Shown piece by piece: positions 11,756 to 38,602 of a DNA stretch of 64,000 bases (the stretch's first letter is position 1; the number at the start of each line of letters is the position of its first letter). Under the pieces are notes generated by a model. It was not told where the DNA came from. It ran no database searches and saw only the letters and a list, made by a program, of their open reading frames with translations. Source of the DNA: Dyadobacter jiangsuensis (lineage in GTDB: Bacteria > Bacteroidota > Bacteroidia > Cytophagales > Spirosomataceae). Location: positions 1 to 64,000 of the forward strand of contig NZ_PYAS01000016.1 of NCBI RefSeq assembly GCF_003014695.1, given 5' to 3'. The translations under genes were made by a program, and so were the position numbers.

Positions 11756-12013
11756 GTGAGTAAATACATTGATAAGTTCAAGAATCCGTCCAACGGATAC
11801 GTTGCGACAGCCACTACACCATTCTCATTCCTCCTGTGCCTGATGTTCGGGCCGCTGTATTTCCTGATGAAGGGGAATTTCAAGCACTTCCTGTTGTCAG
11901 CTCTGCTCGCGATACCCACGTGTGGGTTTTCATGGTTGATTTACGCGTTCGGCGTGTATGAAATCAATAAGACCCAATACCTGAATCGCGGATGGACGGC
12001 TGTAAAGCCTTAA
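11756..12013 (+). CDS. DUF2628-like small membrane protein
   Basis: An 85-residue protein with a GTG start and AAGGGG upstream. It has two hydrophobic helices (FSFLLCLMFGPLYFLM and FLLSALLAIPTCGFSWLIY) and a C-terminal YEINKTQYLNRGW, the pattern of DUF2628-type proteins in which a short soluble tail ends in a conserved GW. Function unknown. It is the first gene after the late promoter. Confidence 0.6.
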   Translation: MSKYIDKFKNPSNGYVATATTPFSFLLCLMFGPLYFLMKGNFKHFLLSALLAIPTCGFSWLIYAFGVYEINKTQYLNRGWTAVKP

Positions 12014-12044
12014 CCATAATCATCTAAAATAGAATGCGGTAGGA

Positions 12045-12332
12045 ATGGCCAAGGGAAGAAAGACAGGAGGGCGGAAGGCTGGTTCAAAGAACATTATCAG
12101 CGCCGACATCCGTTATCTGGCTCAATCCTACGCCAACACCGCAATCGAAGTCCTGTTCGGACTGATGACCAATTCAAAGCAGGATGTCGTCAAAATCTCC
12201 GCCGCCCGTGAATTACTGGATCGCGCATACGGGAAGCCATCCCCAATGGAGCTACCGAAAGGAGAGGACGAAGAAGCGGTTCCTGTTCTGGTAAAAGTAG
12301 AAGTGATCGACGCCCGGAAGGTCGATGCCTAA
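12045..12332 (+). CDS. terS: Small terminase subunit-like protein (DUF5681-type)
   Basis: A 95-residue protein with a basic start (GRKTGGRKAGSKN) and the block ISAARELLDRAYGKP, seen in DUF5681-type proteins that precede terminase large subunits. Small terminase subunits recognise the packaging site on phage DNA and load the large subunit. It overlaps the terminase large gene by eight bases. The assignment rests on context as much as sequence. Confidence 0.6.
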   Translation: MAKGRKTGGRKAGSKNIISADIRYLAQSYANTAIEVLFGLMTNSKQDVVKISAARELLDRAYGKPSPMELPKGEDEEAVPVLVKVEVIDARKVDA

Positions 12333-13596
12333 GCTAAACCTGCCGCAAGCAAGATTTCTGGCCTTGCCTCACAAGTTCAAAGGGTTTGTCGCCGGGTTCG
12401 GTTCTGGCAAAACATGGGTTGGATGTGCAGGGCTTTGTAAGCACTCATGGGAGCATCCGCATATCAGCGCCGGATACTTCGCCCCGACGTATGGACAGAT
12501 CCGGGATATTTTCTACCCGACTATCGACGAAGTAGCCTATGACTGGGGACTTACGACTAAAATACACCTGAGTAACAAGGAAGTTGACCTGTATTCAAAC
12601 GGCATTTACCGGACGACAATCCTGTGCCGGTCGATGGAAAAGCCCAGCGAGATCGTGGGTTTCAAGATCGGTAAAGCGCTGATCGACGAGCTGGACGTGA
12701 TGAAGACCGACAAGGCGGAACTCGCATGGCGGAAGATCATCGCCCGTATGCGTTACAATGAGCCAGGTCTGTTGAACGGGATTGACGTGACGACGACGCC
12801 CGAGGGATTCAAATTCGTTTACCAGACGTTTGTCAAGAAGCTACGGGATGTCCCGGAACTGGCTGATATGTACGGGATGGTGCAGGCCAGCACATTCGAT
12901 AACGAACTGAACCTCCCTGCGGATTATATTCCTTCTTTACTGGCATCATACCCGCCACAGCTAATCAACGCTTACCTCCGTGGACAATTCGTCAACCTTG
13001 CCAGTGGCAGTGTGTACCCGGATTTCGACCGCCACCTGAATCACGCCGACGCGGTAATGCGTGACCACGAGCCGCTACACATCGGGATGGATTTCAACGT
13101 CATGAATATGGCGGCGGTTATTAACGTGATCCGCGAAGGTATGCCATTCTCAGTGAATGAGCTTACAGGTGTGAGGGATACCCCGACGATGGTGAGTATG
13201 CTGAAAGACCGATACCCAAACCGTACGATTTCCATTTACCCGGATGCCAGCGGTCAGAGCCGTAAGTCCGTAAACGCAAGTGAAAGCGACCTGTCCATTT
13301 TACGGCAGTCGGGTTTCTCTGTACAAGTGGACGGCACGAATCCCGCTGTGAAGGATCGGGTCCTGTCAGTGAATGGAATGATCCTGAATTCCACAGGGCA
13401 ACGGCGATGGCTGGTGAATACCAATAACTGCCCGAGGTTGACGGAGAGTTTGGAACAGCAGGCGTATGACAAGAATGGGGAGCCGGATAAGACCAGTGGC
13501 TTCGATCACATCAACGATGCACAGGGTTATTTTCTGGCGAAGAAGTACCCGGTTATCAAGAGAACAATGTCAATGGCGAAGGTCGGAGGGCAGTGA
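12325..13596 (+). CDS. terL: Terminase large subunit
   Basis: A 423-residue protein. The ATPase domain has Walker A GFGSGKT at 24-30 and Walker B ALIDE at 118-122, and TTTPEGF fits the coupling motif III. The C-terminal nuclease domain begins near residue 255 with GMDFN and has further acidic residues in YPDASGQS and FDHINDAQGY. It drives DNA into the procapsid and cuts it. The length is normal for small-headed siphophages. Portal and capsid genes follow. Confidence 0.9.
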   Translation: MPKLNLPQARFLALPHKFKGFVAGFGSGKTWVGCAGLCKHSWEHPHISAGYFAPTYGQIRDIFYPTIDEVAYDWGLTTKIHLSNKEVDLYSNGIYRTTILCRSMEKPSEIVGFKIGKALIDELDVMKTDKAELAWRKIIARMRYNEPGLLNGIDVTTTPEGFKFVYQTFVKKLRDVPELADMYGMVQASTFDNELNLPADYIPSLLASYPPQLINAYLRGQFVNLASGSVYPDFDRHLNHADAVMRDHEPLHIGMDFNVMNMAAVINVIREGMPFSVNELTGVRDTPTMVSMLKDRYPNRTISIYPDASGQSRKSVNASESDLSILRQSGFSVQVDGTNPAVKDRVLSVNGMILNSTGQRRWLVNTNNCPRLTESLEQQAYDKNGEPDKTSGFDHINDAQGYFLAKKYPVIKRTMSMAKVGGQ

Positions 13597-13950: not shown

Positions 13951-15348
13951 ATGAATCCAGATCAAAAGCACCCCGAATACGATGAGTTTTCAAAAGTATG
14001 GAAACGATGCCGGGATGCCGCCACTGGACAGCGTGCCATTCATAAAGGCGGGGAAGAGTACCTGCCGAAGCTGGAAGGTCAATCCACCGACGAATACGAT
14101 AAATACCGCTCCCGTGCGCTGTATTACAACGCCACAGGCCGAACCGTGGAGGGCATGAAAGGACTGGTATTCCGTAAGAAACCCGTTCTGGTGACGCCGG
14201 AAATGATGAAACCGTGGCTGGAAGACATCACCATGACCGGAATTTCATTCAACGGTCTGGCAAAGAAGAACCTGGAAGAAGTTATGAAAGTAGGCCGATA
14301 CGGTCTGCTTGTTGACTACCCGCTTGCCCCACAACTGGTAGAAGGCGCGAGCCTGACGATCAACGACGCAGCGAAGATGGATATTCGACCATACATCGCA
14401 GGATACACAGCCGAGAACATTTTGAACTGGATACTGGAGAGAGTAGGATCAAAGACCATCCTGACCAATGTATTCTTGAATGAGCCGGTATTAAACACAG
14501 CCTACAAGAAGCAGATCCGCCAACTAACCTTGCAAAACGGTTATTATCAGCAATTTGTCTGGGCGTCCGGTGATAAGGGAAGTTGGGAGCTTATCCAGAC
14601 AGTGACCCCGTTTATGAACGGAAAGGCGCTGGACTGGATACCGTTCTGGTTCAGTGCAGCCGAAGAATCCGACGGATCGGTGCAGAACCCGCCTATTGAA
14701 GACATGGTATATGTGAACATCTCCCACTACCAGAACAGCGCTGACCTCGAAAATGGCGCTCATGTGTCAGGATTACCGACTCCGTACATTACGGGCATTG
14801 ATGCCTCGGATACCCCAAAGCTCGCTCTCGGTACCGGAACATCATGGCAGCTTCCGAATGTGGACAGTAAAGTCGGGTTCGTTCACGTTGGGGCTGATGG
14901 CTTTGCCACGCTCGAAAAGCTGATGGATCGTAAGGAAAACATGCTCGCGGCACTTGGTGCGCGTATGATTGCCCCGGAAAAGAAAGCAGCGGAAGCCGCA
15001 GAAACAGCCGGTATCCGTCGCGGTGGTGAGAACAGCGTTCTCGGAGACATTGCCGGAACGGTGGAAATGTCCCTGCAACAGGCTCTTGCTTTCATGGCTG
15101 AATGGGGCGGGGCGAAAGGCGATGTACGTTTTGAGATCAACAAAGACTTCCTGCCAATGCCGATGGATGCCGCTTCGCTCACAGCGTGGGTGAAGGCATG
15201 GCAATCAGGTGCAGTATCCGAAGAAACGTTCTTTGAAGCCCTGCAAGCTGGCGAGGTGGTAGGGGAAACCCTGACATTCGAAGACGAGCAGGAGCGCAAG
15301 GCCGATTCACCCCCACCACTGGGTACAATGACAAATGACACCGAATGA
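13951..15348 (+). CDS. DUF4055-type phage portal protein
   Basis: A 465-residue protein. The N-terminal half has YRSRALYYNATGRTVEGMKG and FRKKP, and RYGLLVDYP at about 115, as in DUF4055 portal proteins; the C-terminal part has FAEW-type FMAEWGG and a polar tail. A dodecameric portal would form the DNA gate at one capsid vertex and bind terminase. It overlaps the MuF-like gene by 14 bases. AAGGAG precedes the ATG. Confidence 0.85.
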   Translation: MNPDQKHPEYDEFSKVWKRCRDAATGQRAIHKGGEEYLPKLEGQSTDEYDKYRSRALYYNATGRTVEGMKGLVFRKKPVLVTPEMMKPWLEDITMTGISFNGLAKKNLEEVMKVGRYGLLVDYPLAPQLVEGASLTINDAAKMDIRPYIAGYTAENILNWILERVGSKTILTNVFLNEPVLNTAYKKQIRQLTLQNGYYQQFVWASGDKGSWELIQTVTPFMNGKALDWIPFWFSAAEESDGSVQNPPIEDMVYVNISHYQNSADLENGAHVSGLPTPYITGIDASDTPKLALGTGTSWQLPNVDSKVGFVHVGADGFATLEKLMDRKENMLAALGARMIAPEKKAAEAAETAGIRRGGENSVLGDIAGTVEMSLQQALAFMAEWGGAKGDVRFEINKDFLPMPMDAASLTAWVKAWQSGAVSEETFFEALQAGEVVGETLTFEDEQERKADSPPPLGTMTNDTE

Positions 15349-16396
15349 GGAAATTCAGGACGCATCCATTCGGCACATGGTATGGCTGGAACGGTTCAAA
15401 GCCGGAACAGTCCGGCAAATAATCGCTCTTTTGAATTCCGCAGACGCTGACCTTCGCGAGAAACTGGCCGCTAGGCTGTCATCAATCAGTGAGCGTGGGT
15501 ATAAGCTTTCAGATGCCACGAAAAAGAGAATTGAGACAATGCTGGCCGAAATCACGGCCATGCGTTCTGACCTTTACAAAGTAGCAGAGGTTAAAACCGT
15601 CGAAATCCTGAAAGATTTTGCGGTACATGAGGCCGACTTCCAGCAAAGATTGATTGAAGAGGTAAGTAAATCAGCCGTTGCTGTCAGTCTTGAAAAGCCA
15701 TCCCTTACGCAATTGAAGGCTGTTGTGACATCCCGGCCATTCGAAGGCAATCTGTTGAAGCATTGGTTTTCGAGTTTAAACGCTGCCGAGCGTAAAAGAC
15801 TGAATGACGCGGTAAAGATCGGCATATCGGAAGGCGAAACCACCGATGAAATCATTCGCAGGGTGATAGGAACACGCTCCCTGAATTACCGTGATGGCGT
15901 TTTGGAGATCGGGCGCCGACAGGCCGCTTCACTGATAAACACAGCAATCGCCAGCACAGCCACACACGCAAGCGAAGAACTTTACGCCGCCAACGAGGAT
16001 ATAATCAAAGGCGTGCAGTGGGTTTCTACTCTGGATAGTCGTACATCCGCACCATGCCGGGCGAATGATGGTAAGATATTCCCAATCGGTGAGGGGCCGC
16101 GACCACCAATCCATTTCAACTGCCGATCAAAGACGGTTCCATTCCTGGGTGAAACATCCATCAAGGGTACACGAGCTAGTGTGTTTGGTCCGGTTCCTTC
16201 CGATATGACGTACGGTGCATGGTTGAAGAAACAATCTATATCTGTTCAAAATGAAGTCCTTGGTGTGAAAGCTGCAAAGCTGTTTCGCAATGGTCTTCCG
16301 ATTGAGAGGTTTGTTGACAAACAAGGCAGATCATATACACTTGACGAGCTGAAACAGCGTGACGCTGAGATTTGGCAAAAAACATTCGGACGGTAA
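15335..16396 (+). CDS. MuF-like minor head protein
   Basis: A 353-residue, largely helical protein. The C-terminal region at about 237-265 contains TLDSRTSAPCRANDG and PPIHFNCRSKTVPF, the cysteine/histidine signature of the phage Mu F / SPP1 gp7 family. These proteins bind the inside of the portal-capsid vertex and may enter the cell with the DNA. It follows the portal gene directly, the usual place for the family. Confidence 0.85.
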   Translation: MTPNEEIQDASIRHMVWLERFKAGTVRQIIALLNSADADLREKLAARLSSISERGYKLSDATKKRIETMLAEITAMRSDLYKVAEVKTVEILKDFAVHEADFQQRLIEEVSKSAVAVSLEKPSLTQLKAVVTSRPFEGNLLKHWFSSLNAAERKRLNDAVKIGISEGETTDEIIRRVIGTRSLNYRDGVLEIGRRQAASLINTAIASTATHASEELYAANEDIIKGVQWVSTLDSRTSAPCRANDGKIFPIGEGPRPPIHFNCRSKTVPFLGETSIKGTRASVFGPVPSDMTYGAWLKKQSISVQNEVLGVKAAKLFRNGLPIERFVDKQGRSYTLDELKQRDAEIWQKTFGR

Positions 16397-16426
16397 GGCC
16401 GTCTAATTTGAACCCAAGGGGCTAAA

Positions 16427-17053
16427 ATGACTATCACCGAAGAAGATCTGAAAAAAGCTGTTGACGAAGCCGTTGACAAGGCTACGAAGGGATTGAAGGA
16501 AAAGAATGCTGAATTGCTCGGCAAGCTGAAAGAAGAAAAGGAAACCAGAGAGGCTTCCGAAGAAGCAAAGCGCATCGCCGAAGAAGAAGCCGCCAACAAA
16601 TCCGGCGACATTGAGAAAATCAAACAGCAGCTCGAGGCGAAGCATAAACGCGAACTTGACACCGCTTCCGACAAGGCAACAAAGGCCGAAGCTCGCTTAA
16701 ATCAGGTATTGATTGATAATGGTTTGACAGACGCGTTAATTAAGGCTAAAATAGCCCCACAGTTCCTTGAAATGGCGAAAGACCATATCAAAGCACGACA
16801 CACACCAGAGATCGGTGAGGTTGATGGGGCTGTAACTGCACTCATTGGTGGTAAGGCCATCGGTGAGTTTATTACCGAATGGTCGCAAGGCGACTCAGGT
16901 AAACACTTCATTGCTGCTCCGACCAACGGTGGTGGCGGGTCCAATGGATCAAACAGTCAGGGCAAAGCGCAGACTGCAACCGCGAATATGGGTGGTACTC
17001 GTGAGGAACGAACCGCAGCAATCGCACAAAAATTTCAACTCTCTGACAAATAG
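16427..17053 (+). CDS. Capsid scaffolding protein
   Basis: A 208-residue protein whose first 100 residues are a highly charged coiled coil (LKKAVDEAVDKATKGLKEKN and similar), followed by a short domain (LIDNGLTDALIKAKIAPQFL) and a Gly/Ser/Asn-rich linker ending in a helix. This composition and position, immediately before the major capsid gene, is typical of phage scaffold proteins that organise procapsid assembly and are later removed. Confidence 0.75.
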   Translation: MTITEEDLKKAVDEAVDKATKGLKEKNAELLGKLKEEKETREASEEAKRIAEEEAANKSGDIEKIKQQLEAKHKRELDTASDKATKAEARLNQVLIDNGLTDALIKAKIAPQFLEMAKDHIKARHTPEIGEVDGAVTALIGGKAIGEFITEWSQGDSGKHFIAAPTNGGGGSNGSNSQGKAQTATANMGGTREERTAAIAQKFQLSDK

Positions 17054-17061
17054 GATCATCC

Positions 17062-18030
17062 ATGTCACTCTCTCAAATGCAAGTCTTCAATGAATACATT
17101 ATGCCAGCGACAATCGAAACACTGGCTCAAATGGTCAACAAATTCAACTCCGCTTCACGTGGCGCTATCCGTCTGACAACAGAAGGCTTTACAGGTGATT
17201 TCTTGCAGGAATCATTCTTCGCAAGCATTCACTCAGCTCAACGCCGTGTTGACCGCTATGCTGCTCAGGCGTCCGCAACACCAACAGACCTGACACAGTT
17301 GAAAAACAGTTCCGTCAAGGTTGCTGGTGGTTTCGGTCCGATTCGTTTTGAGCCGGGTCAATTGACATGGTTGCAAAAACCAACTGCCGAAGGCATTGAA
17401 GTTGCTTCCCGTAACTTTGCCGAAGCTCTGATGTCCGATCAACTGAACACAGCAATCGCCGCTTTATGCGCCGCTATCGGTAACCAAGCTGCTGCCACAA
17501 ACGACGTATCCGCAACACTCGGCCTGACATACGGAGCCATTAACGACGCTCACGCGAAGTTCGGCGATCATTCCGGTTCAATCGTTGCTGACGTGATGAC
17601 TGGTCAGGTTTACCACAAGTTCATCGGCCAGAACCTTGCAAACGCCACACAGCTATTCCAGGCAGGCAACGTAACAGTTGTTGACATTCTGGGTAAAGCG
17701 GTGATCGTAACAGACGCTCCGGCTCTGTACGTTACGGGCACACCGAACAAGCAGAAGGTTTTGGGCTTGGTTGAGAGCGCCGCTATCGTTCATGACGGTG
17801 GTGACGTGATCTCCAACATCGAAACAACAAACGGACAAACTCGTATCGAAACAACCATGCAGGTAGACTACACATTCGGTCTGGGCCTGAAGGGTTACAC
17901 ATGGGACGAGGCCAATGGCGGTAAATCCCCGACTGATGCTGAACTCGCTACAGGTTCCAACTGGGACAAAACAGCGACAAGTATCAAGCACACCGCTGGC
18001 GTTATCGCTATCGGCGACGCTTCTAAATAA
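17062..18030 (+). CDS. Major capsid protein
   Basis: A 322-residue protein after the scaffold gene, with the HK97-like order of elements: an N-terminal helix (MQVFNEYIMPATIETLAQMV), an extended arm, then a long mixed alpha/beta body containing VDRYAAQAS, GFGPIRFEPG and VIVTDAPALYV. No protease is encoded nearby, so it probably assembles without proteolytic maturation. A stem-loop follows the stop. Confidence 0.8.
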   Translation: MSLSQMQVFNEYIMPATIETLAQMVNKFNSASRGAIRLTTEGFTGDFLQESFFASIHSAQRRVDRYAAQASATPTDLTQLKNSSVKVAGGFGPIRFEPGQLTWLQKPTAEGIEVASRNFAEALMSDQLNTAIAALCAAIGNQAAATNDVSATLGLTYGAINDAHAKFGDHSGSIVADVMTGQVYHKFIGQNLANATQLFQAGNVTVVDILGKAVIVTDAPALYVTGTPNKQKVLGLVESAAIVHDGGDVISNIETTNGQTRIETTMQVDYTFGLGLKGYTWDEANGGKSPTDAELATGSNWDKTATSIKHTAGVIAIGDASK

Positions 18031-18356: not shown

Positions 18357-18839
18357 ATGACACTTACGGTCGAAGATGGAAGCATTGTAGAGGGAGCCAA
18401 CTCACTCGTTGATTTGGATTTCGCGAACAGCTACCACTCCGACCGTAATAATACCGGCTGGACAGGCACCGATGCTGTAAAACAAGCTGCCCTGATCCGC
18501 GCCACTGATTATCTGCAAGAAAAATATTCATGGAAAGGTTGCTTGGTTGAAGCAGACCAGCCTCTGAACTGGCCGCGATCCGGCATCCAGAATGTCGCCA
18601 ATAACATTATTCCAAACGCTGTCAAGCAAGCTGTATGTGTGTTGGCACTGGAAGCCCTGACAGCCACATTAAATCCGTCCATATCCCCAAACGGACAAAC
18701 GAAATTCAAAAAGGTCGATGTGATCGAGGTTGAATACTTCGCATCCCCCTTTACCAGCACGAAGCGCCCTGCTGTTGATGGCCTATTGCGCCCATACCTT
18801 TCCGGCAACGGCATTAACGTACCAACGGTGCGCGTATGA
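18357..18839 (+). CDS. DnaT-like head-tail adaptor protein
   Basis: A 160-residue protein with SLVDLDFANSYHSDR, IRATDYLQEKYSWKG and WPRSGI, the pattern of phage head-tail connectors that databases often name 'DnaT-like ssDNA-binding protein'. The position directly after capsid genes and before the head-closure gene fits the adaptor that docks under the portal. It overlaps the next start by four bases. Confidence 0.75.
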   Translation: MTLTVEDGSIVEGANSLVDLDFANSYHSDRNNTGWTGTDAVKQAALIRATDYLQEKYSWKGCLVEADQPLNWPRSGIQNVANNIIPNAVKQAVCVLALEALTATLNPSISPNGQTKFKKVDVIEVEYFASPFTSTKRPAVDGLLRPYLSGNGINVPTVRV

Positions 18840-19198
18840 GCTTTTACGGTGAAATGGCTGAACTGGCGAAAGAGCAGATTGAGGAATTCGGTCGGTCTGT
18901 CATTTTGCGCCGCAACAATCAGGGGGATTACGATCCTGCGACTGATTCGTTTTCCGGTGGGAGTTCTGCCGATGTGTCTGTTATCGCCCTGTTTACCAAG
19001 TTTGAACAGAACGAGATTGACGGCACGATCATCCTGCGAGATGACAAGAAAGTCCTAATTGCCGCTTCTTCACTGGCGTCCCCACCACAGCACAATGATA
19101 TTCTGGTGGACGGTGACTACGAATACAAAGTCCTGCCGCTTGACATTATCCGCCCAGGCGACACACCGCTCATTTATAAGTTGCAGGTCAGAAAATGA
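18836..19198 (+). CDS. Head closure (stopper) protein
   Basis: A 120-residue, beta-rich protein: GRSVILRRNNQGDYDPATDS, then KVLIAASSLASPPQHNDILV and a C-terminal PGDTPLIYKLQVRK. Size and position match the head-closure or stopper ring (HK97 gp7 / SPP1 gp16 group) that seals the portal after packaging. ATGA-type overlaps join it to both neighbours. Confidence 0.65.
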   Translation: MSFYGEMAELAKEQIEEFGRSVILRRNNQGDYDPATDSFSGGSSADVSVIALFTKFEQNEIDGTIILRDDKKVLIAASSLASPPQHNDILVDGDYEYKVLPLDIIRPGDTPLIYKLQVRK

Positions 19199-19629
19199 CC
19201 GTTGATGAGCAAATCAAAGCCGCATACAAGAAAAAGGTCGAAGGCTCCTTAGAAAAGGCTGTTCGGATCTACGCATTGCAGGCTTACACAAATATCGTTA
19301 TCAGTACTCCTGTTGGTAATCCTGACCTCTGGAAATCCGATCCACCGCCCGGCTATGTTGGCGGACGCGCTCGTGCGAACTGGAATATCGACATTAACAC
19401 CGTTGATTTATCTGTCACTGAAAGCACTGATGCCCCAGATACCGTTCAGGCGATCAACGTGACGGCCAAATACAAGGTCAAGGACACGATCTACATCTCA
19501 AACAACCTTCCGTACATCCAGCGATTGAATGAAGGCTGGTCTTCGCAAGCCCCTGAAAACTTCGTTGATAAAGGGCTTATGCTGGCTTCTCGTCAAGCCA
19601 AGCAGATCATTGCGAGGGAATTGAAATGA
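19195..19629 (+). CDS. Neck protein, HK97 gp10-like
   Basis: A 144-residue protein with an N-terminal helix (EQIKAAYKKKVEGSLEKAV), a STPVGNPDLWKS block followed by GGRARANWNI, and a C-terminal NNLPYIQRLNEGWSSQAP. The 'TPVxTGxLR.NW' and 'YxxxLxxGxSxQAP' patterns are those of gp10-type neck proteins that connect head and tail. Overlaps the tail-terminator gene by four bases. Confidence 0.75.
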   Translation: MTVDEQIKAAYKKKVEGSLEKAVRIYALQAYTNIVISTPVGNPDLWKSDPPPGYVGGRARANWNIDINTVDLSVTESTDAPDTVQAINVTAKYKVKDTIYISNNLPYIQRLNEGWSSQAPENFVDKGLMLASRQAKQIIARELK

Positions 19630-20030
19630 GCTATGAATCCGCAGTAGCCGCCATTCGTAATGCATTTAAGATCGCATGGGGCGCAACCACCAAAGTCGCA
19701 TACGATGACGTGAAGTTTGATATTCCGAACAGTGAAACGTGGGTGCGCTTGAAAATTGCTCATGTCGATGGCTATCAGGCCAGCATCGGATCACCGAGCA
19801 GCAACAAGTTTCGCCGCGAAGGATTAATCACCGCGCAGATTTTTCAGCCGCAGGGTAACGCCAGCAAGGACGCCCGAAAAAAGGCTGATTTAATCATTCC
19901 CATCTTTCAAGGAAAGCAAATTTCTGGTATAACCTTCTATGACGTTCAGGCGCGAGAAATCGGTAATGACGGCGCAGGGTGGCATCAGATCAACGTGCTA
20001 TCCAAATTCTATTATGACGTTATCGCTTAA
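19626..20030 (+). CDS. Tail terminator protein (DUF4128-like)
   Basis: A 134-residue protein with an N-terminal helix (YESAVAAIRNAFKIAW), ETWVRLKI, FRREGLITAQIFQP and a C-terminal FYDVQAREIGNDG. This is the layout of phage tail terminators, which form a ring that stops tail tube growth and joins the neck. It immediately precedes the tail tube gene. Confidence 0.7.
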   Translation: MSYESAVAAIRNAFKIAWGATTKVAYDDVKFDIPNSETWVRLKIAHVDGYQASIGSPSSNKFRREGLITAQIFQPQGNASKDARKKADLIIPIFQGKQISGITFYDVQAREIGNDGAGWHQINVLSKFYYDVIA

Positions 20031-20044
20031 CCAAGGAGCCATCC

Positions 20045-20959
20045 ATGACTGATTCTTCACAAACCCGCTTGGGCTATGTCGCCGAAGCAACATACGGTGT
20101 CACACCTACAACGCCTGTCTTCAAAAAACTGCGCATGACTGGTGAAAGCCTTTCCCCGGCTATTCAGTACGTTTCCAGCAACGAGATTCGCCCGGATCGT
20201 AACGTCGCGGATATGACTCGTGTCGGTCAGGAAGCTGGTGGCGACATCAACTTTGAGCTTTCCTATGGGACATTCGATGACTTCCTTGAAAGCTTGATGT
20301 ACAGCACGTGGGCAACAAACGTCCTGAAAAACGGCGTAACTCGTAAATCATTCACACTGGAAAAAACCTTTGCTGCAACTGCAAACCAATTCCACCGCTA
20401 TCCGGGAGCTGTTGTAAACAGCCTTTCGCTGAATATGCGTGCAAAGGAGATCGTTACCGGCTCGTTTAATATGATGTGCCAGACAACGACTTCTGCTCAG
20501 GCAATTATCGCAGGCGCGACCTACACCGATCCAAACGCAAACCCTGTCATCAACGCCGCCAATAACTTCGCAGCTTTGTCAATCACAGGCGGCGGTACAG
20601 TTCAGTTGATGTCCCTATCATTGAACATCACAAACAACCTGGAACAACAGGCCGTTATGGGTCAGGTTGCGAGCAAAGGCATCCGTGCGGGTCAATTCGT
20701 TGTTACTGGTGAGATGGAAGCATATTTCGATAGCCAAGAATTGTTCGAACTGTTCCTCGCCGATACTGCGGCAGACCTGACATTCTCTCTGGGTGGCGTA
20801 TCCACAGCGAAATACACATTCTTCATTCCAAAGCTGAAACTGACAGCAAACAACATCGCTGCCGATGGCAACAACCAAGACGTTATGCAGAAGATCAGCT
20901 TCCAAGCCTATTTCGATGCGACACAAGCCGCTCAAATGAGAATTACGCGCACACCGTAA
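20045..20959 (+). CDS. Major tail tube protein
   Basis: A 304-residue protein opening TRLGYVAEATYGVTPTTPVF and containing GGDINFELSYGTFDDFLESL, the conserved start of a widespread family of siphophage tail tube proteins. Hexamers stack around the tape measure to form the tail tube. CAAGGAG lies upstream. A stem-loop follows the gene, as after the capsid gene. Confidence 0.85.
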   Translation: MTDSSQTRLGYVAEATYGVTPTTPVFKKLRMTGESLSPAIQYVSSNEIRPDRNVADMTRVGQEAGGDINFELSYGTFDDFLESLMYSTWATNVLKNGVTRKSFTLEKTFAATANQFHRYPGAVVNSLSLNMRAKEIVTGSFNMMCQTTTSAQAIIAGATYTDPNANPVINAANNFAALSITGGGTVQLMSLSLNITNNLEQQAVMGQVASKGIRAGQFVVTGEMEAYFDSQELFELFLADTAADLTFSLGGVSTAKYTFFIPKLKLTANNIAADGNNQDVMQKISFQAYFDATQAAQMRITRTP

Positions 20960-21529: not shown

Positions 21530-21855
21530 TTGAAGTCCTTGCCTGGGAACTGGAGTGGGGCGATAAGGTTGAATGGCTTCAAGGTTTACAGCACAGCGGT
21601 AAAAAAGTTGATGCATTAGACCGTCGCCCTAAACTTCTTCCCGGCTTGGACTTTTACTTGATTGCATACCACGAACTGAGGTATGATAAACCAATTGGAA
21701 TGAGCGTAGGCCCGATACCTTGGTCTTCCATTGACAGATGGGCAATACGAAACGGAGTGAATGACATTGAAGATTTCACAGTTTTGGAAAGCCATATCAG
21801 GTCATTGGAGAACGCCGCTTATCAATTTGAAGAGAAGCGCAAGGGGTCGAAATGA
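21526..21855 (+). CDS. Tail assembly chaperone, frameshift extension (gpT-like part)
   Basis: The downstream frame encodes LIEVLAWELEWGDKVEWLQG, then DALDRRPKLLPGLDFYLIAY and a C-terminal LENAAYQFEEKRKG. It has no good start codon of its own near the beginning (only a TTG at 21646), yet is open from the slippery site to the tape-measure start. It should therefore be made as a fusion of about 268 residues with the upstream chaperone, binding the tape measure during tail assembly. It overlaps the tape-measure ATG by four bases. Confidence 0.75.
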   Translation, partial: LIEVLAWELEWGDKVEWLQGLQHSGKKVDALDRRPKLLPGLDFYLIAYHELRYDKPIGMSVGPIPWSSIDRWAIRNGVNDIEDFTVLESHIRSLENAAYQFEEKRKGSK

Positions 21856-26743: not shown

Positions 26744-26746
26744 GCC

Positions 26747-28976: not shown

Positions 28977-29165
28977 ATGAAGAGAATGGAAGCCAAGCTC
29001 GAAGTCCTGACCGCCAGCTCCAAAGTCGCAGGGGGATTTCTTGTTTTTGGACTTAGCCCCGCTGAGTACGCAGGGATCTGCACCGCCTTGTATTTCTTTG
29101 TTCAAACGCTCTATATTATCTGGAAGTGGAACAAGGAAAGAAAGCTCGATGTCTCTGGGAAATAA
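28977..29165 (+). CDS. Holin-like membrane protein
   Basis: A 62-residue protein with one or two hydrophobic helices (VAGGFLVFGLSPAEYAGICT, ALYFFVQTLYIIW) and a basic C-terminus (KWNKERK). Size, topology and position before the endolysin are those of a small holin. Since the endolysin has a SAR-type anchor, it may be a pinholin that only depolarises the membrane. It overlaps the endolysin start by 17 bases; an alternative ATG lies at 28986. Confidence 0.65.
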   Translation: MKRMEAKLEVLTASSKVAGGFLVFGLSPAEYAGICTALYFFVQTLYIIWKWNKERKLDVSGK

Positions 29166-29628
29166 ACTTACTGGCGCTGCCGTCGCGGCGATGCTCTCCA
29201 TTGCAGTTCCGTTTGTCGCAGTCGAGGAAGGTTTTCGATCCGTTCCGTACAAGGATATTGGAGGCGTGTGGACATGGTGCTATGGAGAAACTGAAGGGCA
29301 GAAGCCATCTGGTCCGGTTTCGAAAGAGCAATGTGATTTTCTACTGAGAACCAAGCTTCGCGCCATTGGGATAGCCGTCTGGTATCTGGTTGACACTCCG
29401 ATGACGAATAGCCGATGGGCAGCTTTGACGTCATTCACCTATAACGTTGGATTGAATGCGTTCAGAACATCCACCTTGCGTAGAAAGCTGAATGCAGGCC
29501 ACCCGCAGGCATGTCAGGAGCTAATGCGCTGGACGTTCGTGAAGAAAACGGATTGCAAAATTGCAGCCAATGGCTGTATGGGATTACCTAAGCGCCGAAT
29601 GAAGGAGATGAGCCTGTGTCAGTCTTGA
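29149..29628 (+). CDS. SAR-type endolysin (lysozyme, GH24)
   Basis: A 159-residue muramidase. The N-terminus holds a weakly hydrophobic helix rich in Ala and Gly (LTGAAVAAMLSIAVPFVAV), typical of signal-arrest-release endolysins. Right after it, E-x8-D-x5-T is intact: VEEGFRSVPYKDIGGVWTWC supplies Glu, Asp and Thr at the correct spacing. The C-terminal part has ALTSFTYNVG, also a GH24 signature. I chose the ATG at 29149 (AAGGAAAG upstream); the longer frame from 29041 lies in the holin gene. Confidence 0.9.
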   Translation: MSLGNKLTGAAVAAMLSIAVPFVAVEEGFRSVPYKDIGGVWTWCYGETEGQKPSGPVSKEQCDFLLRTKLRAIGIAVWYLVDTPMTNSRWAALTSFTYNVGLNAFRTSTLRRKLNAGHPQACQELMRWTFVKKTDCKIAANGCMGLPKRRMKEMSLCQS

Positions 29629-29828
29629 ATTCTATTGCCATCGGCCTCGCAGCGTTCATTTTGGGGATAACCCTTGGTTACTGGTCTGGATACTCAGACG
29701 GCAAAGAGAAGCAACGCACCGTCACAATTGAAAAGATCGTACAGGTAAAGGAGAAACAACGTGAAATCCGCAATAATCGCCCTGATGCCATTGGCGTTGT
29801 TAACCGCTTGCGAGACGGTTCCTTTTAA
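29616..29828 (+). CDS. Inner-membrane spanin (Rz-like)
   Basis: A 70-residue protein with a GTG start overlapping the endolysin end, one N-terminal membrane helix (IAIGLAAFILGITLGYWSGY) and a charged periplasmic coiled coil (KEKQRTVTIEKIVQVKEKQR). This is the topology of an i-spanin, though shorter than lambda Rz. The o-spanin gene begins inside it, in another frame. Confidence 0.7.
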   Translation: MSVLNSIAIGLAAFILGITLGYWSGYSDGKEKQRTVTIEKIVQVKEKQREIRNNRPDAIGVVNRLRDGSF

Positions 29829-30361: not shown

Positions 30362-30766
30362 TTAAGGCGCTCGCGATTCTAAACGCCTTTGGGCCAACGC
30401 CAACTGCTCTGGATCTTCTGTGATTTTGCCGCACATTATTGCCGCTTCGGTGAACACAGATAGGGGATACTCCGGCTTAAAGTCTTCATCCTTCTCGACA
30501 ATGAATCCGCCATCATCATCAAACTGGACTGTTTCCAGCTCTGGCATGAATACATTATCCAGCTCAGGCTTGCCATCGTTCAAGTCCGCCAACCCAAACG
30601 CCATTCCAGGGTAAAAGGGACTAAGCTCTGTCAGCAACCAAGTAGCAACCCCATTTACGGCGAACAGTTTGACAACCGGCGGCGGGTCAATCTCATTTCC
30701 CTGATCAGTACGCATACCGTTTTCTTCAAGTAAGGCTTGCTCGGCGGGGGTAAGTAATCTCGACAT
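30362..30766 (-). CDS. DUF2958-family protein
   Basis: A 134-residue protein starting SRLLTPAEQALLEENG and containing PPPVVKLFAVNGVATWLLTE and GLADLNDGKPELDNVF, the standard blocks of DUF2958. The family is frequent on plasmids, integrative elements and phages of Proteobacteria, with no known function. I use the ATG at 30766, preceded by AGGAGA, rather than the longer frame to 30907. Confidence 0.75.
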   Translation of the reverse strand: MSRLLTPAEQALLEENGMRTDQGNEIDPPPVVKLFAVNGVATWLLTELSPFYPGMAFGLADLNDGKPELDNVFMPELETVQFDDDGGFIVEKDEDFKPEYPLSVFTEAAIMCGKITEDPEQLALAQRRLESRAP

Positions 30767-30860
30767 GGTGTCTCCTTTTTTTAGAAAGTATAGGCTCGGC
30801 GCGCCTTCGGCACAAGGGGCTATCGGGAGGAAGAAAGAAGGATTTTGCTGATATTTGGGT

Positions 30861-31325
30861 ATGAACACGACAGACTCAATAGCATTCGCAGCGCTTGTTA
30901 CAGCCATTATCGCATTATTAATATCAGTGCCACTGGCATGGATTCAGATTTCTCAATATCGCCGCGACCGCCGTGGAATTATCGTTGAAGGAAGGCCGAA
31001 GCACGAACAAAAAGAATGGAATTCAGTTATTTTGACAAATCTGTCGTCCACACCAATATTGATTAAAGACTGGGAGATGACATGGAAGCGACGAAAGTTT
31101 TTTGTTTGGCCTGTCGAAAGAAGAGCTGATGATCGAGGTGGTCCTTATGACTGGCCAATTACCATTCCACCCCATGATCGTTACGAACTTGAGCTAGCGG
31201 AGGTATACCACTTCAATTGGAATCCCAAGTCATACAAGGGAAAACTCTATATTGACCTTTACATAGCTGGTAAAAGCAGAAGGGTTAGAAGGTTGGTTCA
31301 CAAGCCATCTCGCCCTAAAAAATAA
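30861..31325 (+). CDS. Single-pass membrane protein, unknown
   Basis: A 154-residue protein with an N-terminal membrane helix (FAALVTAIIALLISVPLAWI), then a basic stop-transfer (QYRRDRRG) and a cytoplasmic beta-rich domain (NSVILTNLSSTPILIKDWEM). The domain ends in a highly basic RRVRRLVHKPSRPKK. Proteins of this type occur as orphan hypothetical genes in many bacteria. I prefer ATG at 30861 over TTG at 30855. It stands alone between lysis and early genes. Confidence 0.6.
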   Translation: MNTTDSIAFAALVTAIIALLISVPLAWIQISQYRRDRRGIIVEGRPKHEQKEWNSVILTNLSSTPILIKDWEMTWKRRKFFVWPVERRADDRGGPYDWPITIPPHDRYELELAEVYHFNWNPKSYKGKLYIDLYIAGKSRRVRRLVHKPSRPKK

Positions 31326-33949: not shown

Positions 33950-34404
33950 TGATTGAAGCTGAAACGATCCTTAGATTAATAGAAACCGTTGATCCGAATG
34001 ATACGGAAAAGCTGGATGAGATTGATGCAAGGGTTTATTGTTATGTAAGACCTGAAGAGTTCAGCTATGTTTCTATGTCCGATAATACAGACAAGGATTA
34101 TTGCTGTTATTCATTCATTGCAAAATATTTAGGACCGAAGGAAAAATTTGTTGGTTTAGATATGTCTCGGTTAATAATTCGCTACACTCGCAGCCGCGAA
34201 GAGTTGAAGGCAATCAGGCCGGATGGTGTAAAATGGATTAGGACGACTTTTTGCGTTGATATGGGAAGCATTTCCAGTATTCATATCGGATCAACCATTA
34301 TTGATGCCGGAGTACTGCCCACCGAAGAACTATCCGAACTTCACGCCATCATCCAAGCAATAGATTATGAACGTCGATCAAGCCAAAACCATACCAATAA
34401 GTGA
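33949..34404 (+). CDS. Hypothetical protein before the primase
   Basis: A 151-residue acidic protein (EAETILRLIETVDPNDTEKL, YCYVRPEEFSYVSMSDNTDK). Its last 38 bases overlap the primase start. No family recognised. Confidence 0.6.
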   Translation: MIEAETILRLIETVDPNDTEKLDEIDARVYCYVRPEEFSYVSMSDNTDKDYCCYSFIAKYLGPKEKFVGLDMSRLIIRYTRSREELKAIRPDGVKWIRTTFCVDMGSISSIHIGSTIIDAGVLPTEELSELHAIIQAIDYERRSSQNHTNK

Positions 34405-35359
34405 CGTAGCCGAAAGGCTGGGGGCGAAGCTGCACAAGCGGATCAAGCCACACATCACTGTATGGTTCAGCCCGTTTCGGAATGAGAAAACTGCTTCATT
34501 CCATATCGACGAGCGAACCAACAGCTTTAAAGATTGGGGTCACCATCTACCGAAGGGTGACGTGATCGATCTTTGGGTGGACTTCCACGGACTGAAACGG
34601 AATGACCCCGAAAGCACCAAACAGGCATTGAAAGCTCTGGAAGCATTCGATACAATCCCACGCACCACCATTTACAAGGAAGCCAAGGCAATGACCTATT
34701 CAGATCATTATCAGATCAAAAAGCTGTCAGACCGTGTGACAGCCGCAAATCTGAAAGAAGAGATTGACCGCCGCAGACTTCCCAAAGGTCTGGTGGAGCG
34801 CTACGTTAAACAGTCCAGCATTTACGACAATGAGACGAAAAAGACGTTTTATGCTTTTGCTTTCGAAAACGATAAGGAAGGCCACGAGATAAATATTTAC
34901 AACCCCCGTCTGCATAAATCCTTCAAAACATGCATCGGCCCAAAGGCTATCAGTACCTTTCCAGCCCATCCAGAGGCAACGGACGTAACTGCTTTTGTGT
35001 TTACTGGCTTTTTCGACTTTTTGACCTGGCTTAACTTGAAAGGTCTGCCAAAGCCAAATGAGGAATATATTGTCAGCAACGGCGACAGCATGATTTCTTC
35101 TGTTGGAGAGTACCTTACGTCCAAAAACGTTCAAATCGCCCGTGTCCTATCGTTTACCGACCATGACGTGTCAGGCTCAGGGGAAAGAACAATGCACGCC
35201 CTCGCCTCAATTCTGGAAGCGGAAGGCGTACATTTTGGATCAATGGATCATCTTTATGACGGTCATAAAGACCTGAGTGCTGCTCATATAGGGAATACGA
35301 GCGGATTGCAAAGTGCGTATCGGGCTAATTCACCGAGACAAACACTTAGACCCCGATAG
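34367..35359 (+). CDS. CHC2-fold primase/toprim protein lacking zinc ligands
   Basis: A 330-residue protein. The N-terminal domain follows the DnaG zinc-binding fold (WFSPFRNEKTASFHIDERTN, SFKDWG, GDVIDLWVDF), but the cysteines and histidine that hold zinc are replaced (SPFR for CPFH; DWGHH for CxxC). The C-terminal toprim domain has FVFTGFFDFLTWL (glutamate of the first motif replaced) and FTDHDVSGSGERTM (the DxD motif as DHD). It could prime DNA synthesis for phage replication or for strand transfer. It converges with the coupling-protein gene, overlapping by 14 bases. Confidence 0.7.
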   Translation: MNVDQAKTIPISDVAERLGAKLHKRIKPHITVWFSPFRNEKTASFHIDERTNSFKDWGHHLPKGDVIDLWVDFHGLKRNDPESTKQALKALEAFDTIPRTTIYKEAKAMTYSDHYQIKKLSDRVTAANLKEEIDRRRLPKGLVERYVKQSSIYDNETKKTFYAFAFENDKEGHEINIYNPRLHKSFKTCIGPKAISTFPAHPEATDVTAFVFTGFFDFLTWLNLKGLPKPNEEYIVSNGDSMISSVGEYLTSKNVQIARVLSFTDHDVSGSGERTMHALASILEAEGVHFGSMDHLYDGHKDLSAAHIGNTSGLQSAYRANSPRQTLRPR

Positions 35360-37127
35360 TCTCCTCGTAATAAGGGTTTCTGTCAGACCGTTCTTTTGCT
35401 TGCTTCATTTCGTAATACGGCCATTTCTGGAATTCTGCGATAGGGTTTTGATCTATGAAAGTAAATATCTTATCAGAAGAACCCCGCCTGATTTCATCAG
35501 CAGTTACCAATGGTCGGGCGTTTGGTTGGCCTTTTTCGTCCCCTACAACATTTCTGTCATAAACCACATACGTGGCCTTTCCCGCCAATCCTGAAACATG
35601 TTCGGCTGTGAAAGCATCGTTGATCCCGAAAAAATGCTTCACAGAAGCACCTGCCATGAACACCTGCCAAGAACTGCCATAGATGGCTTGCAACTGGCTC
35701 AGAGATTGAAATATCGGCCAGAGGGTGATGTTATACCCCGCACCCATAGCCATGAAGCTGCTAACATCGTTGATCTTCCCGAGTGATGGAAACTCGTCCA
35801 GAATGAAGGTTACGCGCTTATTCCGTGTCCTGACAACAGCCCTCAATGAGGTTGCAACCACCAGCCTAAGCCATTTTGACTGGCTGTTCATCTTATCCGG
35901 GGGGATAATCAAATACAACGCGGTTTTGCCATCGGAGATCCCGTTAATATCGAATGAAGATTCCGACATTGAATCCTGCAATGCAGAGGATTTTAAGAAA
36001 TCAGTCTGTGAGTGGCAGCTTGACATTATGCTACCAAAAGTTTTTTCGGAGTTGACCATTACTGACTGAACCTCGGTAGCGGTCAGCGCAACGATCTCAT
36101 TATCGCTTACCGCCATGTCAGTGAGCAATTCCTTAAAATCTTCCTCGGACTTTCTTAGCCATCTCCACACCGTCGCAAGCTCTCGTGAACAATTGCCCTT
36201 CGATCCCTCGATAACACAATGTATTATCAATGCAGTAATCAGCGATCTGGCGCGGTCATTCCAGAACGGGTCCGAAGTCTTGGCATCCTCGGGAACGATC
36301 ATTTCAGCGATCATAGCCGCGTCATCGCCCAATGATTCGGTATTCGTGGCGTCCATTACATCAAGGGGGTTATAGCGGTCTGGACTTGTCGAATATACCT
36401 TCCAAGGATCAATAACCCGAACATCTTTGCCTGATTGTCGCTGGTAATTTGCCGTCACATAAGCACATTCACCCTTGGGGTCAATTACAAACCACGAACC
36501 ATCATACCCGCCAATTCCGAGAAGGTTGGGCGCTATGAGGTTTGTGAATTTCCCTGAACGCGTCCCTGCGACCGAGAGTAAATGCCCTTGCTTCGGATAA
36601 GTATAACCACCGCCAATATACAGTCCCTTCTTACCTTCGTATGGTCTTAAATCGTCGTTGGTTGCCCACTTCGCTGATCCGTAACGGTTCATATCAGCCT
36701 TTAACAGAAACATCTTTTCCCGCCAGCGGTTGAAGGCAACCATCACCACGACAGTAATAAAAAGATTTGTGGTCAGGTACGCCAATAGAGGAAACAGATC
36801 ACCATTACTTCCCACGATCCAGTGATACACATGGGATATAATGAAGAACCCGACCAATAGAACTACCCATATCCCGACGGCGAAAATAATCATCGACACA
36901 CGGGCAAACGGGTGAAGGGGTGCAAGGGTAGGGGCGACGTCAAGCTTGTAGAGCTTCCGATTGTAAGCCCTGATAAAGCCCCACACAGCACCGGCAAGCG
37001 TAATAGGGGTTAGGAAGATACCGACTGCCCAGAGAATGTATTTGACTTTTGCTTCTGGATTTTTGGGGGATTGGAACAGCGCGAGGATGTCGTCAGCCGT
37101 CCACTGAGGAGGTTGGTTGTTCTGCAT
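35346..37127 (-). CDS. Type IV coupling protein (TraG/VirD4 family)
   Basis: A 593-residue protein. Three or four N-terminal membrane helices (YILWAVGIFLTPITLAGAVW, FARVSMIIFAVGIWVVLLVG, AYLTTNLFITVVVMVAF) precede the ATPase. Walker A is VAGTRSGKF (about 189-197), a variant with Ala for the first Gly; Walker B is VTFILDEFPSLG (about 440); DPKGECAYVT and FWNDRARSLI are other VirD4/TraG blocks. Coupling proteins bring the relaxase-DNA complex to a type IV secretion channel. No channel genes are present, so transfer would need a helper system. Confidence 0.9.
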   Translation of the reverse strand: MQNNQPPQWTADDILALFQSPKNPEAKVKYILWAVGIFLTPITLAGAVWGFIRAYNRKLYKLDVAPTLAPLHPFARVSMIIFAVGIWVVLLVGFFIISHVYHWIVGSNGDLFPLLAYLTTNLFITVVVMVAFNRWREKMFLLKADMNRYGSAKWATNDDLRPYEGKKGLYIGGGYTYPKQGHLLSVAGTRSGKFTNLIAPNLLGIGGYDGSWFVIDPKGECAYVTANYQRQSGKDVRVIDPWKVYSTSPDRYNPLDVMDATNTESLGDDAAMIAEMIVPEDAKTSDPFWNDRARSLITALIIHCVIEGSKGNCSRELATVWRWLRKSEEDFKELLTDMAVSDNEIVALTATEVQSVMVNSEKTFGSIMSSCHSQTDFLKSSALQDSMSESSFDINGISDGKTALYLIIPPDKMNSQSKWLRLVVATSLRAVVRTRNKRVTFILDEFPSLGKINDVSSFMAMGAGYNITLWPIFQSLSQLQAIYGSSWQVFMAGASVKHFFGINDAFTAEHVSGLAGKATYVVYDRNVVGDEKGQPNARPLVTADEIRRGSSDKIFTFIDQNPIAEFQKWPYYEMKQAKERSDRNPYYEETIGV

Positions 37128-37397
37128 AACTGATATAGGTGAGGTTTAACTTTGCCAAGATATTTATTAATTTATTTAATGCGTGTAACCACTTGGGGAT
37201 TTATTTTCATGGAATGATTGAGGGTGTAAAAGTTTGGGATTTAGCCGATTGGGGGTTGTTTTCATGTGCATGTTTTCGTAGTATAGCGTAGTATAGCAAG
37301 ACGTGTTCTATACGTATCAAAACTCCGTTATTGACCCGTCCAGAACCATCTTGTAAGGAGACGTTACACTCTCCCTTAACCCTCACGTTTAAAAACC
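37128..37397. other. Divergent intergenic region, candidate origin of transfer
   Basis: It lies between the coupling protein and mobC/relaxase genes, the usual oriT position. It has a tandem repeat gtagtatagc x2 (37278-37297) and an inverted repeat GTATAG (37291-37296)/CTATAC (37308-37313) with an 11-base loop. CGTATCA, the heptamer of the early promoters, is at 37313-37319. TTGACC at 37331 could be a -35 box for mobC. The nic site cannot be named from the sequence alone. Confidence 0.45.
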
Positions 37398-37727
37398 ATG
37401 GCGCGAAAACCTTCTCTCGAAAAAAGAACAAACAAGCCTCAAATCTGCTTTAGCGACTCGGAGCTAACCGTTGCTGAGCGCAACGCTCGGGAAGCCCGAA
37501 TGACCCTCTCAGAGTGGGGGAGATTTCGTATGGCAGAAGTTCAGCCTATGCGTTTGAAGCCTACACCGGAGGCAGAGGAAATGCTCAAAGGTCTTGCGGC
37601 AGTGCAACAAATCAGCAAGAACCTTGATTTGCTTGCCAAGGAAGGTAATGTCTCCGATGAGATCCTGATGATGGTCAGGACAGAGCTGATGGCGGCAGGG
37701 CAACTTATATCGAAGGGACTAAAATGA
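37398..37727 (+). CDS. mobC: MobC-like relaxosome accessory protein
   Basis: A 109-residue protein: basic N-terminus (ARKPSLEKRTNKPQICF), a ribbon-helix-helix-like region (SELTVAERNAREARMTLSEW) and a C-terminal helix (AAVQQISKNLDLLAKEGNVS). MobC proteins bind oriT, bend or melt DNA and help the relaxase nick. The stop overlaps the relaxase start by four bases. Confidence 0.75.
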   Translation: MARKPSLEKRTNKPQICFSDSELTVAERNAREARMTLSEWGRFRMAEVQPMRLKPTPEAEEMLKGLAAVQQISKNLDLLAKEGNVSDEILMMVRTELMAAGQLISKGLK

Positions 37728-38602
37728 TTATCCGTGGTGCCTCTCGGGGGAATGGCAAGCAGCTTGCCCAGTACCTTCAAACCCCTGCCGAGAACGAACG
37801 TGTCGAATTTTTCGGGGCGTGGGGGACCTCGAACCCGGACGATCTTACTGCATCCATAATTGAGATGGACAGGTTTGCAAAACTGACAAAGGGAAGCAAA
37901 TCTATTTACCATGCGATCATCAGCCCGGACAGGGATGAAAGTCACAAAATGACCGATGAAGACTGGTTGTTTTGTATCGATACCCTTGCCAAAGAGCAGG
38001 GATTACATGGACAGCCTTGGGCAGCACAGAAGCACTTGAAGGATGGTAAATGGCATATGCACACTACGCATCAGCGGTACAGTGTAGAATTGGGAAGGTT
38101 CATTTCTGATAGCCACTCCTATAAAGGTAATGACCGTGCAAGAGCCACTTGTGAGATTAAGTTAGGCCATGCGCGAACACCGCAGCGCAACGAAAACCGA
38201 CCTATCCTGACTAAAAATGTCATTGATGCTTGGCAGAAATCCAAGACCGGACAGGAGTTTTTTGATCGTTGCAAAGATTACGGATACACAGTTGCGTCCA
38301 GCACAACCCGCCGTCCATTCATGATTATCGACGAAAACGGCAGAAGCTTCGATTTGTTGAAAAAACTTCGCGACAAGCCGAACAAGTTCTCAGTACGGAC
38401 TGCACAAATGAAGGAGCGCATGAAGGACATTGAGCTTCCATCTGACAAGTCAGTTATCAGAAATATCCGCACCCAGCAGAAGGCCAGAATTGCCAAGGAG
38501 AATAAGGAGCTATTCGAGGATATGACCGAAAGAGAGAGGCGTAAGAGTGAATTTGCAAAAAAGTTCAAGCCCCGCGACCATGATAAGGATCATGAGCGCT
38601 GA
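37724..38602 (+). CDS. mobA: MobA/VirD2-type relaxase
   Basis: A 292-residue protein. The N-terminus MIIRGASRGNGKQLAQYLQT and SIYHAIISPDRDE are typical of a relaxase family common in Alphaproteobacteria; the metal-binding motif III appears as KWHMHTTHQRYS (about 109-120), three histidines. The C-terminal 130 residues are basic and helical. The usual nucleophile tyrosine of such relaxases is in the N-terminal segment (Tyr17 in AQYLQ is a candidate). It nicks oriT and pilots the strand. It is the last gene of the element before the tRNA. Confidence 0.85.
   Translation: MIIRGASRGNGKQLAQYLQTPAENERVEFFGAWGTSNPDDLTASIIEMDRFAKLTKGSKSIYHAIISPDRDESHKMTDEDWLFCIDTLAKEQGLHGQPWAAQKHLKDGKWHMHTTHQRYSVELGRFISDSHSYKGNDRARATCEIKLGHARTPQRNENRPILTKNVIDAWQKSKTGQEFFDRCKDYGYTVASSTTRRPFMIIDENGRSFDLLKKLRDKPNKFSVRTAQMKERMKDIELPSDKSVIRNIRTQQKARIAKENKELFEDMTERERRKSEFAKKFKPRDHDKDHER

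Follow-up and report, generated by a model that had tools for sequence, protein, structure and literature searches.

Do the genes of a complete phage particle and those of a mobilization system, found close together on one contig, belong to a single mobile element or to two neighbours? The question is raised by a stretch of 64,000 bases, referred to below as the window, with which contig C16 (244,209 bases) begins in the genome of Dyadobacter jiangsuensis (8.27 Mb). The window contains a siphophage late module (12.0–29.8 kb) and a mobilization (mob) cassette (34.4–38.6 kb), which an earlier note, made from the letters alone, had read together (11756..38602) as an element that could spread in particles and by helper-driven conjugation. 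As shown below, the two sets of genes are parts of one prophage. In what follows, E1 is the window's own element, and labels in G stand for genomes or contigs, those in C for contigs and those in L for loci.

One prophage in a tRNA-Met gene

The right end of E1 was located within a tRNA-Met gene. The attR site (38687..38735, + strand) is a 49-bp core in the 3′ half of tRNA-Met (cat) (38688..38762, − strand; detected by ARAGORN), and this tRNA gene, 85 bases away from the relaxase stop codon, is the integration target. Its partner, attL (98% identity), was found at G000:C14:3199-3247, adjoined by a tyrosine integrase gene and then by genes for a helix-turn-helix (HTH) protein and ArdC, where contig C14 ends. 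Analysis of same-genus genomes revealed an empty site, with both flanks contiguous and overlapping by approximately 49 bp, in 11 of 11 relatives examined (out of 24, excluding the host itself; those with loci fetched). Because of the attL/attR pair and this empty site, the element was assigned a two-contig span, C14:1-3247 (reverse) plus window positions 1-38735. It is at least 41.9 kb in size and has the mob genes inside. The integrase, the att sites, the empty site in relatives and the intact terminase, portal, capsid, tail and lysis genes together identify E1 as a prophage.

It could be argued that an ordinary prophage stands here beside an independent integrative and mobilizable element (IME) in the same tRNA gene, and that their pairing is accidental. 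IMEs often occur in tandem with other elements, prophages among them (PMC5704250), and the Streptococcus phage phi-SgaBSJ31_rum, judged from part of its record, resembles a phage joined to an integrative and conjugative element (ICE), with integrase and recombinase genes between the parts. The GC content at 31–35 kb (0.44–0.45) is also lower than that of the late module (0.46–0.52). However, the GC content of the mob region falls inside the range of the element's own early region (0.40–0.48). No exact copy of the att region of 13 bp or longer was found inside the element, and the direct repeats seen towards its right end are all short and contain mismatches (e.g. 19 nt, 84%, at 31717/38647; 20 of the 32 repeat families considered). 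Only one of the 11 places in the genome matching PF00589 (a count covering integrases of the tyrosine type) lies in the element, and this is the one on C14. Moreover, the same fused order occurs in the related elements E2, E3 and E5 and in the metagenomic E4. On this att, repeat, integrase and relative-element evidence a tandem or nested IME was rejected, and an accidental pairing is very improbable.

The earlier note's central claim, that phage and mob genes share one element, is therefore upheld by the single attL/attR pair, the absence of an internal att site and the one tyrosine integrase, and also by the persistence of the association across five related elements, whose late modules are of two kinds. 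The alternative that the note itself had named, a separate element delimited by att sites between 31 and 35 kb, failed, since neither an att site nor a second tyrosine integrase was detected between the parts. The content of the span that it gave was confirmed, including the siphophage terminase, portal, capsid, tail and lysis genes (matches in Pfam and PHROGs); the element itself is larger, extending to the left past the window onto C14 and to the right into tRNA-Met. The comparison with phage-plasmids was not borne out. A phage-plasmid was ruled out, since the elements are integrated, with att sites, at tRNA-Met in all four host genomes, although no search aimed at partition or plasmid replication genes was made.

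The related elements were identified with a relaxase profile. Among 222 family genomes, 20 contained a match at 1e-10, and four of these stand apart (at least 429 bits; next best, 216): the host of E1, G010, G109 and G093. A close relaxase was also found in two IMG/VR contigs, one being the window's own prophage (100%) and the other the metagenomic G039. E2 (G010; 49.1 kb) and E3 (G109; 43.9 kb) each lie on a single contig between two att copies, both ends of E5 (G093) are present, and E4 (G039; 46.5 kb) is without ends and integrase. The hosts of E2, E3 and E5 are Dyadobacter genomes carrying the element at the same tRNA as E1, with integrases 81–84% identical to that of E1. A search of 48 genomes of the genus gave the same picture: an integrase of at least 81% identity was present in four, all with the mob cassette and phage late genes, and the next integrases reached at most 54%.

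Genes for ArdC, endolysin, a DUF2958 protein, primase, VirD4, MobC and relaxase are present in all five elements in the same order (read across two contigs in E1 and E5). The late modules are of two kinds. E3, E4 and E5 contain a siphophage module related to that of E1, with a distant Gp13-like capsid protein in E4 and E5 and a terminase in E5 that is 34% identical. In E2 the late module is that of a myophage (terminase, portal, capsid protein, tail sheath), and the mob cassette is still present. In a relaxase tree of 24 rows (23 of 27 loci plus E4; four weak or partial loci and the IMG/VR contig G535 were left out), E1–E5 cluster together (100/100), as do G108 and G014:C32 (100/100); support is weak (68/82) for the fork between the larger groups, and a warning about long branches was issued by the program.

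Which element is closest to E1 was found to vary with the gene compared (window 35346-38602 and homologues): E4 for the relaxase, E2 for VirD4 and E5 for MobC. This pattern suggests recombination between elements within the cassette. In E4, an open reading frame (ORF) resembling, by eye, an HNH/AP2-type homing endonuclease (G039, L004:10983-11474) follows the relaxase gene at the point where the other elements reach the tRNA.

The mobilization cassette and a candidate origin of transfer

The cassette begins with a gene (34367..35359, + strand) for a putative DnaG-like (CHC2) small primase of 330 amino acids (aa), 55–65% identical to its counterparts in E2–E5 (PF01807, 5.1e-4, below cut-off). 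This is followed by a VirD4/TraG-type coupling protein (T4CP) gene (35346..37127, − strand; PF02534 (T4SS-DNA_transf) 2.4e-67, PF12696 2.7e-25; PDB sequence match to Cag5, 5.5e-12) and by genes for a MobC-like relaxosome protein (37398..37727, + strand; PF21983 (NikA-like) 0.0013, below the Pfam cut-off) and a MobA/VirD2-type relaxase (37724..38602, + strand; PF03432, 1.1e-10). A MobC homologue directly precedes the relaxase in E2–E5. The divergent orientation of the VirD4 gene with respect to mobC-mobA agrees with the earlier description of the locus.

Domain, fold and catalytic residues indicate that the last of these proteins is a MobA/VirD2-type (PF03432) HUH relaxase. Residues Y17, H104, H111 and H113 are invariant in all 20 aligned sequences (28 available). 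Among PDB structures, only MobA of R1162, a relaxase, matches the AlphaFold model (mean predicted local distance difference test score, pLDDT, 85.6; predicted template modelling score, pTM, 0.56) below 0.001; relaxases also take ranks 2–6 and 8, with modest template modelling (TM) scores (0.33–0.39 by query) and high root-mean-square deviations. By sequence, the relaxase profile gave no PDB match at 0.1, and neither the relaxase nor MobC matched NCBIfam at 0.01. The relaxase class is presumably MOBP.

A 37-bp block (TTGTAAGGAGACGTTACACTCTCCCTTAACCCTCACG; 37351..37387, + strand), which ends 10 bases before mobC, is a candidate origin of transfer (oriT) with nic site. It is identical in E1–E4, despite MobC proteins that are only 25–45% identical among these four, and is present as a variant in E5. 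Of the 27 relaxase loci, 14 contain a relaxed form of the block, which did not occur in any of 50 sets of shuffled sequences; ten of the 14 lie outside the five-element clade, with the block approximately 0.4 kb upstream of the relaxase start. The 25-bp core (up to 2 mismatches) occurs once each in four of the 48 genus genomes, exactly those carrying the element, and a reversed control pattern in none of the 48. In the viral collection the core was detected only in the prophage's own record and in G039. In G535, a similar motif with shorter spacing was noticed by eye immediately ahead of the ORF that occupies the place of mobC.

The relaxase and VirD4 may instead serve the phage in some other way, the former as a replication initiator or the two as a decoy that blocks resident conjugation. 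Phages are generally known to reuse plasmid enzymes, and a coupling protein of the phage's own could compete for the channel. However, the block before mobC is also present in non-phage mob loci. VirD4 has kept its TraM-recognition domain, its nucleotide-binding motifs are invariant (as read from the alignment), and MobC, relaxase, T4CP and block occur together in all five elements. Such uses are therefore unlikely.

No channel gene of a type IV secretion system (T4SS) was detected among the element ORFs scanned, which were a part of the total. The only match to TIGR03783 (TraG ATPase) in the genome lies outside the element, on contig C30, and E1 is accordingly not an ICE with a channel of its own. 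As in IMEs, a relaxase and an oriT (candidate) are present without a mating channel (in the scanned ORFs). IMEs, however, are not phages, and a full late module lies here within the same att sites. On C30, TraG is accompanied by TraJ, TraK, TraM and TraN, all over the NCBIfam cut-offs, forming a Bacteroidetes-type conjugation operon of the host outside the element. TIGR03783 was over cut-off in all four element-bearing genomes and in none of 14 control genomes; the controls did not include element-free members of the genus, and the survey shows presence rather than association. The dependence on a helper proposed in the earlier note fits both results, the missing channel genes and the helper-type operon in the host.

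Intactness and content of the phage genes

Many prophages are known to be defective, and E1 might be a half-dead hybrid, i.e. an IME with non-functional phage genes or a phage with passenger mob genes. Against this, the late genes are intact, and the ratio of nonsynonymous to synonymous substitution rates (dN/dS) for terminase, capsid and tail genes is 0.03–0.13 in the 9 of 10 pairs with computable dS. The relaxase genes are full-length in all five elements, with a dN of 0.14–0.39, and dN/dS was 0.06–0.22 for the primase (7 of 10 pairs) and 0.29–0.45 for MobC (3 of 10 pairs). Since the mob genes are full-length in five of five elements at a relaxase identity of 54–80%, the association between phage and mob genes appears to be old. 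A half-dead state of either part is quite unlikely.

The late module, encoded on the + strand, includes the genes for the terminase large subunit (TerL; 12325..13596; PF03237 1.4e-30, PF17289) and a DUF4055 portal protein (13951..15348; PF13264, 4.8e-41). Genes for a head morphogenesis protein and scaffold (15335..17053; phrog_241, phrog_206), a Gp13-like major capsid protein (17062..18030; PF20036, 1.5e-126) and head-tail adaptor, tail completion and tail proteins, minor tail included (18357..20959; phrog_477, phrog_169, phrog_290), are followed by that of the tape measure protein (21852..25064; phrog_3519, 5.2e-50). The products of 25061..28935, conserved in E3–E5, are probably tail tip side proteins, as judged by their position; the first corresponds to phrog_8917, which has no known function. 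The lysis genes (29041..29828) encode a lysozyme-type endolysin (phrog_7 8.7e-43; PF00959 (Phage_lysozyme) 2e-29) and a small, possibly spanin-like membrane protein. Between them and the cassette lies the gene for the DUF2958 protein (30362..30907, − strand; PF11171, 1.1e-25), 52–55% identical in E2–E5.

At the left edge of the window, the early region contains a DUF968 protein gene (415..765, − strand; PF06147, 2.4e-11; 37–86% identical in E2–E5), with the integrase, HTH and ArdC genes further left, on C14. Predicted recombination genes follow: a PolB-type 3′-5′ exonuclease, a protein resembling single-stranded DNA-binding proteins (a label given by reading, with no hidden Markov model (HMM) behind it) and a Rad52-like annealing protein (1199..3290, − strand; PF10108 4e-17, PF04098 1.5e-16), and a RusA-like Holliday junction resolvase (3876..4217, + strand; PF05866, 1.3e-6). 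The pair of genes at 4541-6099, the first similar to PADLOC PD-T4-10_A (1.1e-14) and the second a DUF6575 gene (1.9e-6), may have a defence function carried by the phage.

Three of the 222 family genomes (the host of E1, G109 and G112) encode the capsid protein. In G112 it is encoded by an 18-kb contig of a metagenome-assembled genome (G112:C249, L085), with capsid and terminase 60% and 55% identical to those of the window phage and no mob gene; this contig is either incomplete or from a relative that lacks the cassette.

Two possible routes of spread and relation to known elements

More distant combinations of phage and mob genes were also detected. G108:C17 encodes a relaxase (35% identity), VirD4 (28%) and endolysin (41%) together with a capsid, a portal and connectors that belong to a different type of phage; neither a homologue of the E1 MobC nor the block was found there. 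G535 has genes for a primase (35%), VirD4 (48%), relaxase (36%), terminase, portal and capsid, and an integrase (46%) in the opposite orientation; the 108-aa ORF in its mobC position gave no tblastn match to MobC. On a 19.7-kb contig, G014:C32 (L088), genes for a relaxase and VirD4 that share 73% identity with their G108 counterparts lie beside endolysin and ArdC genes; no late genes were seen there, but the contig may represent another mob-phage belonging to the second clade.

The mob cassette is not confined to phages, since it was also found in G105:C1, G014:C40 and G130 without phage genes being detected. In G105:C1 (L089/L093) and G014:C40 (L094/L095), an integrase (50%), HTH protein, ArdC, primase, relaxase and VirD4 are encoded within approximately 25–30 kb, with no match to any late protein of the window phage or G108. 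A PHROGs scan of these backbones covered two proteins, both from G105, one of them a DNA methyltransferase. Both loci look like IMEs related to the window prophage. In G130 (L090:8641-12469), MobC, relaxase and VirD4 genes lie amid metabolic genes (galactokinase-like, Fe-S, UDP-glucose dehydrogenase), and no phage gene was present among ten proteins scanned. A compact relaxase cassette with an oriT-like block was seen in L090 and also in L037, L038, L040-L044, L051 and L052, for which the stretch examined was 1.5 kb around the relaxase. The simplest history would be that an IME backbone took up phage modules or that a phage took up an IME set.

One element with defined boundaries, a conserved cassette, a candidate oriT and a helper-type operon in the host are best explained by a temperate siphophage, resident in tRNA-Met, whose genome includes a mobilization cassette of the IME type as a permanent component; E1 is probably a mobilizable prophage that keeps both routes of spread. 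Nicking, coupling to the helper channel, transfer and particle formation would then proceed as follows. The integrase would excise a circle of at least 41.9 kb, which the late genes would package on the lytic route. On the conjugative route, the block before mobC would be nicked by MobC and the relaxase, and the phage's own VirD4 would deliver the relaxase-DNA complex to a mating channel of Bacteroidetes type (TraG/J/K/M/N) encoded by another element in the same cell. Once the strand has entered the recipient, it could be protected by ArdC and completed by the small primase, and would then integrate into tRNA-Met. On the anatomy of the element, the use of two routes is plausible.

Several observations weigh against this reading. 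E1 is divided over two contigs (C14 and C16), as is E5 (C22 and C6), and the capsid type occurs without mob genes on the 18-kb contig fragment of G112. The HMM matches of both MobC and the primase are below cut-off. The ten outside loci with the block form one clade in the relaxase tree and are therefore not ten independent cases, and the block was not found in the G108 and G014:C32 loci (two of the 13 of 27 without the relaxed form). No strong hairpin was predicted at the candidate oriT, the folding energy being no better than that of shuffles (z −0.39 and +1.08), and the block could alternatively be an operator for mobC. Because dS was undefined (saturated) in 10 of 10 pairs for the relaxase and likewise for VirD4, selection on these two genes rests on low dN and intact frames.

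More tentatively, the mobilizable prophages may constitute a dual-route lineage, in which integrase and mob cassette form a persistent backbone, head-tail modules are swapped between phage types, and spread takes place by virions and by a foreign conjugation channel; the chances of this are somewhat below even. If true, such spread could reach, for example, cells resistant to phage adsorption, and a class is being overlooked both by host ranges based on adsorption and by surveys in which every element counts as phage or as conjugative. The classification of mobile elements follows their mode of travel, and a conserved lineage of prophages equipped with mobilization genes and a candidate oriT makes the use of two routes directly testable, in a natural Bacteroidota system for asking why one element retains two ways of spread.

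The relaxase had no match at 1e-3 in 50,697 phage records; the coupling protein matched 31 of these, none covering 80% (22–34% identity in the best 20 of 31). Ten records out of 72,556 plasmids matched the relaxase, at no more than 31.1% identity. In 390 evenly drawn genomes of the order, eight relaxase matches at 1e-40 all belonged to the same family, and only that of E1's host fell in the close clade (G010, G109 and G093 are not among the matches listed). The matches listed from the open-licence PMC literature include no prophage with relaxase and T4CP in Bacteroidota, though this does not prove that none has been published. What seems to be new is that relaxase, MobC, T4CP and a common oriT-like block are conserved in a lineage of integrated phages and have persisted there while the late module changed.

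The known elements closest to this lineage are Bacteroidetes IMEs, Phi1207.3, which is a conjugative prophage, and the rare phage-plasmids of the P1-like type that carry mob or oriT. The IMEs NBU1, NBU2, Tn4555 and Tn4399 are mobilized by ICEs that have VirD4 and an MPF_B (mating-pair formation) channel (PMC5704250). Like them, the Dyadobacter prophage has an integration module at one end, a relaxase and no channel genes, and its host has an MPF_B-type operon; unlike them, it has a full late and lysis module in the middle and brings its own VirD4, which in their case is the helper's. For Phi1207.3 of Streptococcus pyogenes, the mechanism is left open and the word relaxase does not appear in the text of the paper (PMC4260502), whereas relaxase, T4CP and candidate oriT are visible here. 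P1-like phage-plasmids with mob or oriT are likewise phage genomes carrying conjugation sequences; they are extrachromosomal, however, and mob or oriT mostly marks plasmids that have lost phage functions (PMC10879196), whereas the Dyadobacter prophage is integrated and keeps both gene sets. Phage lysis genes and a T4SS-type region also share one record in phi-SgaBSJ31_rum (MN270259), but integrase and recombinase genes lie between its parts, an arrangement resembling a phage/ICE tandem, whereas in E1 the one tyrosine integrase lies beside attL.

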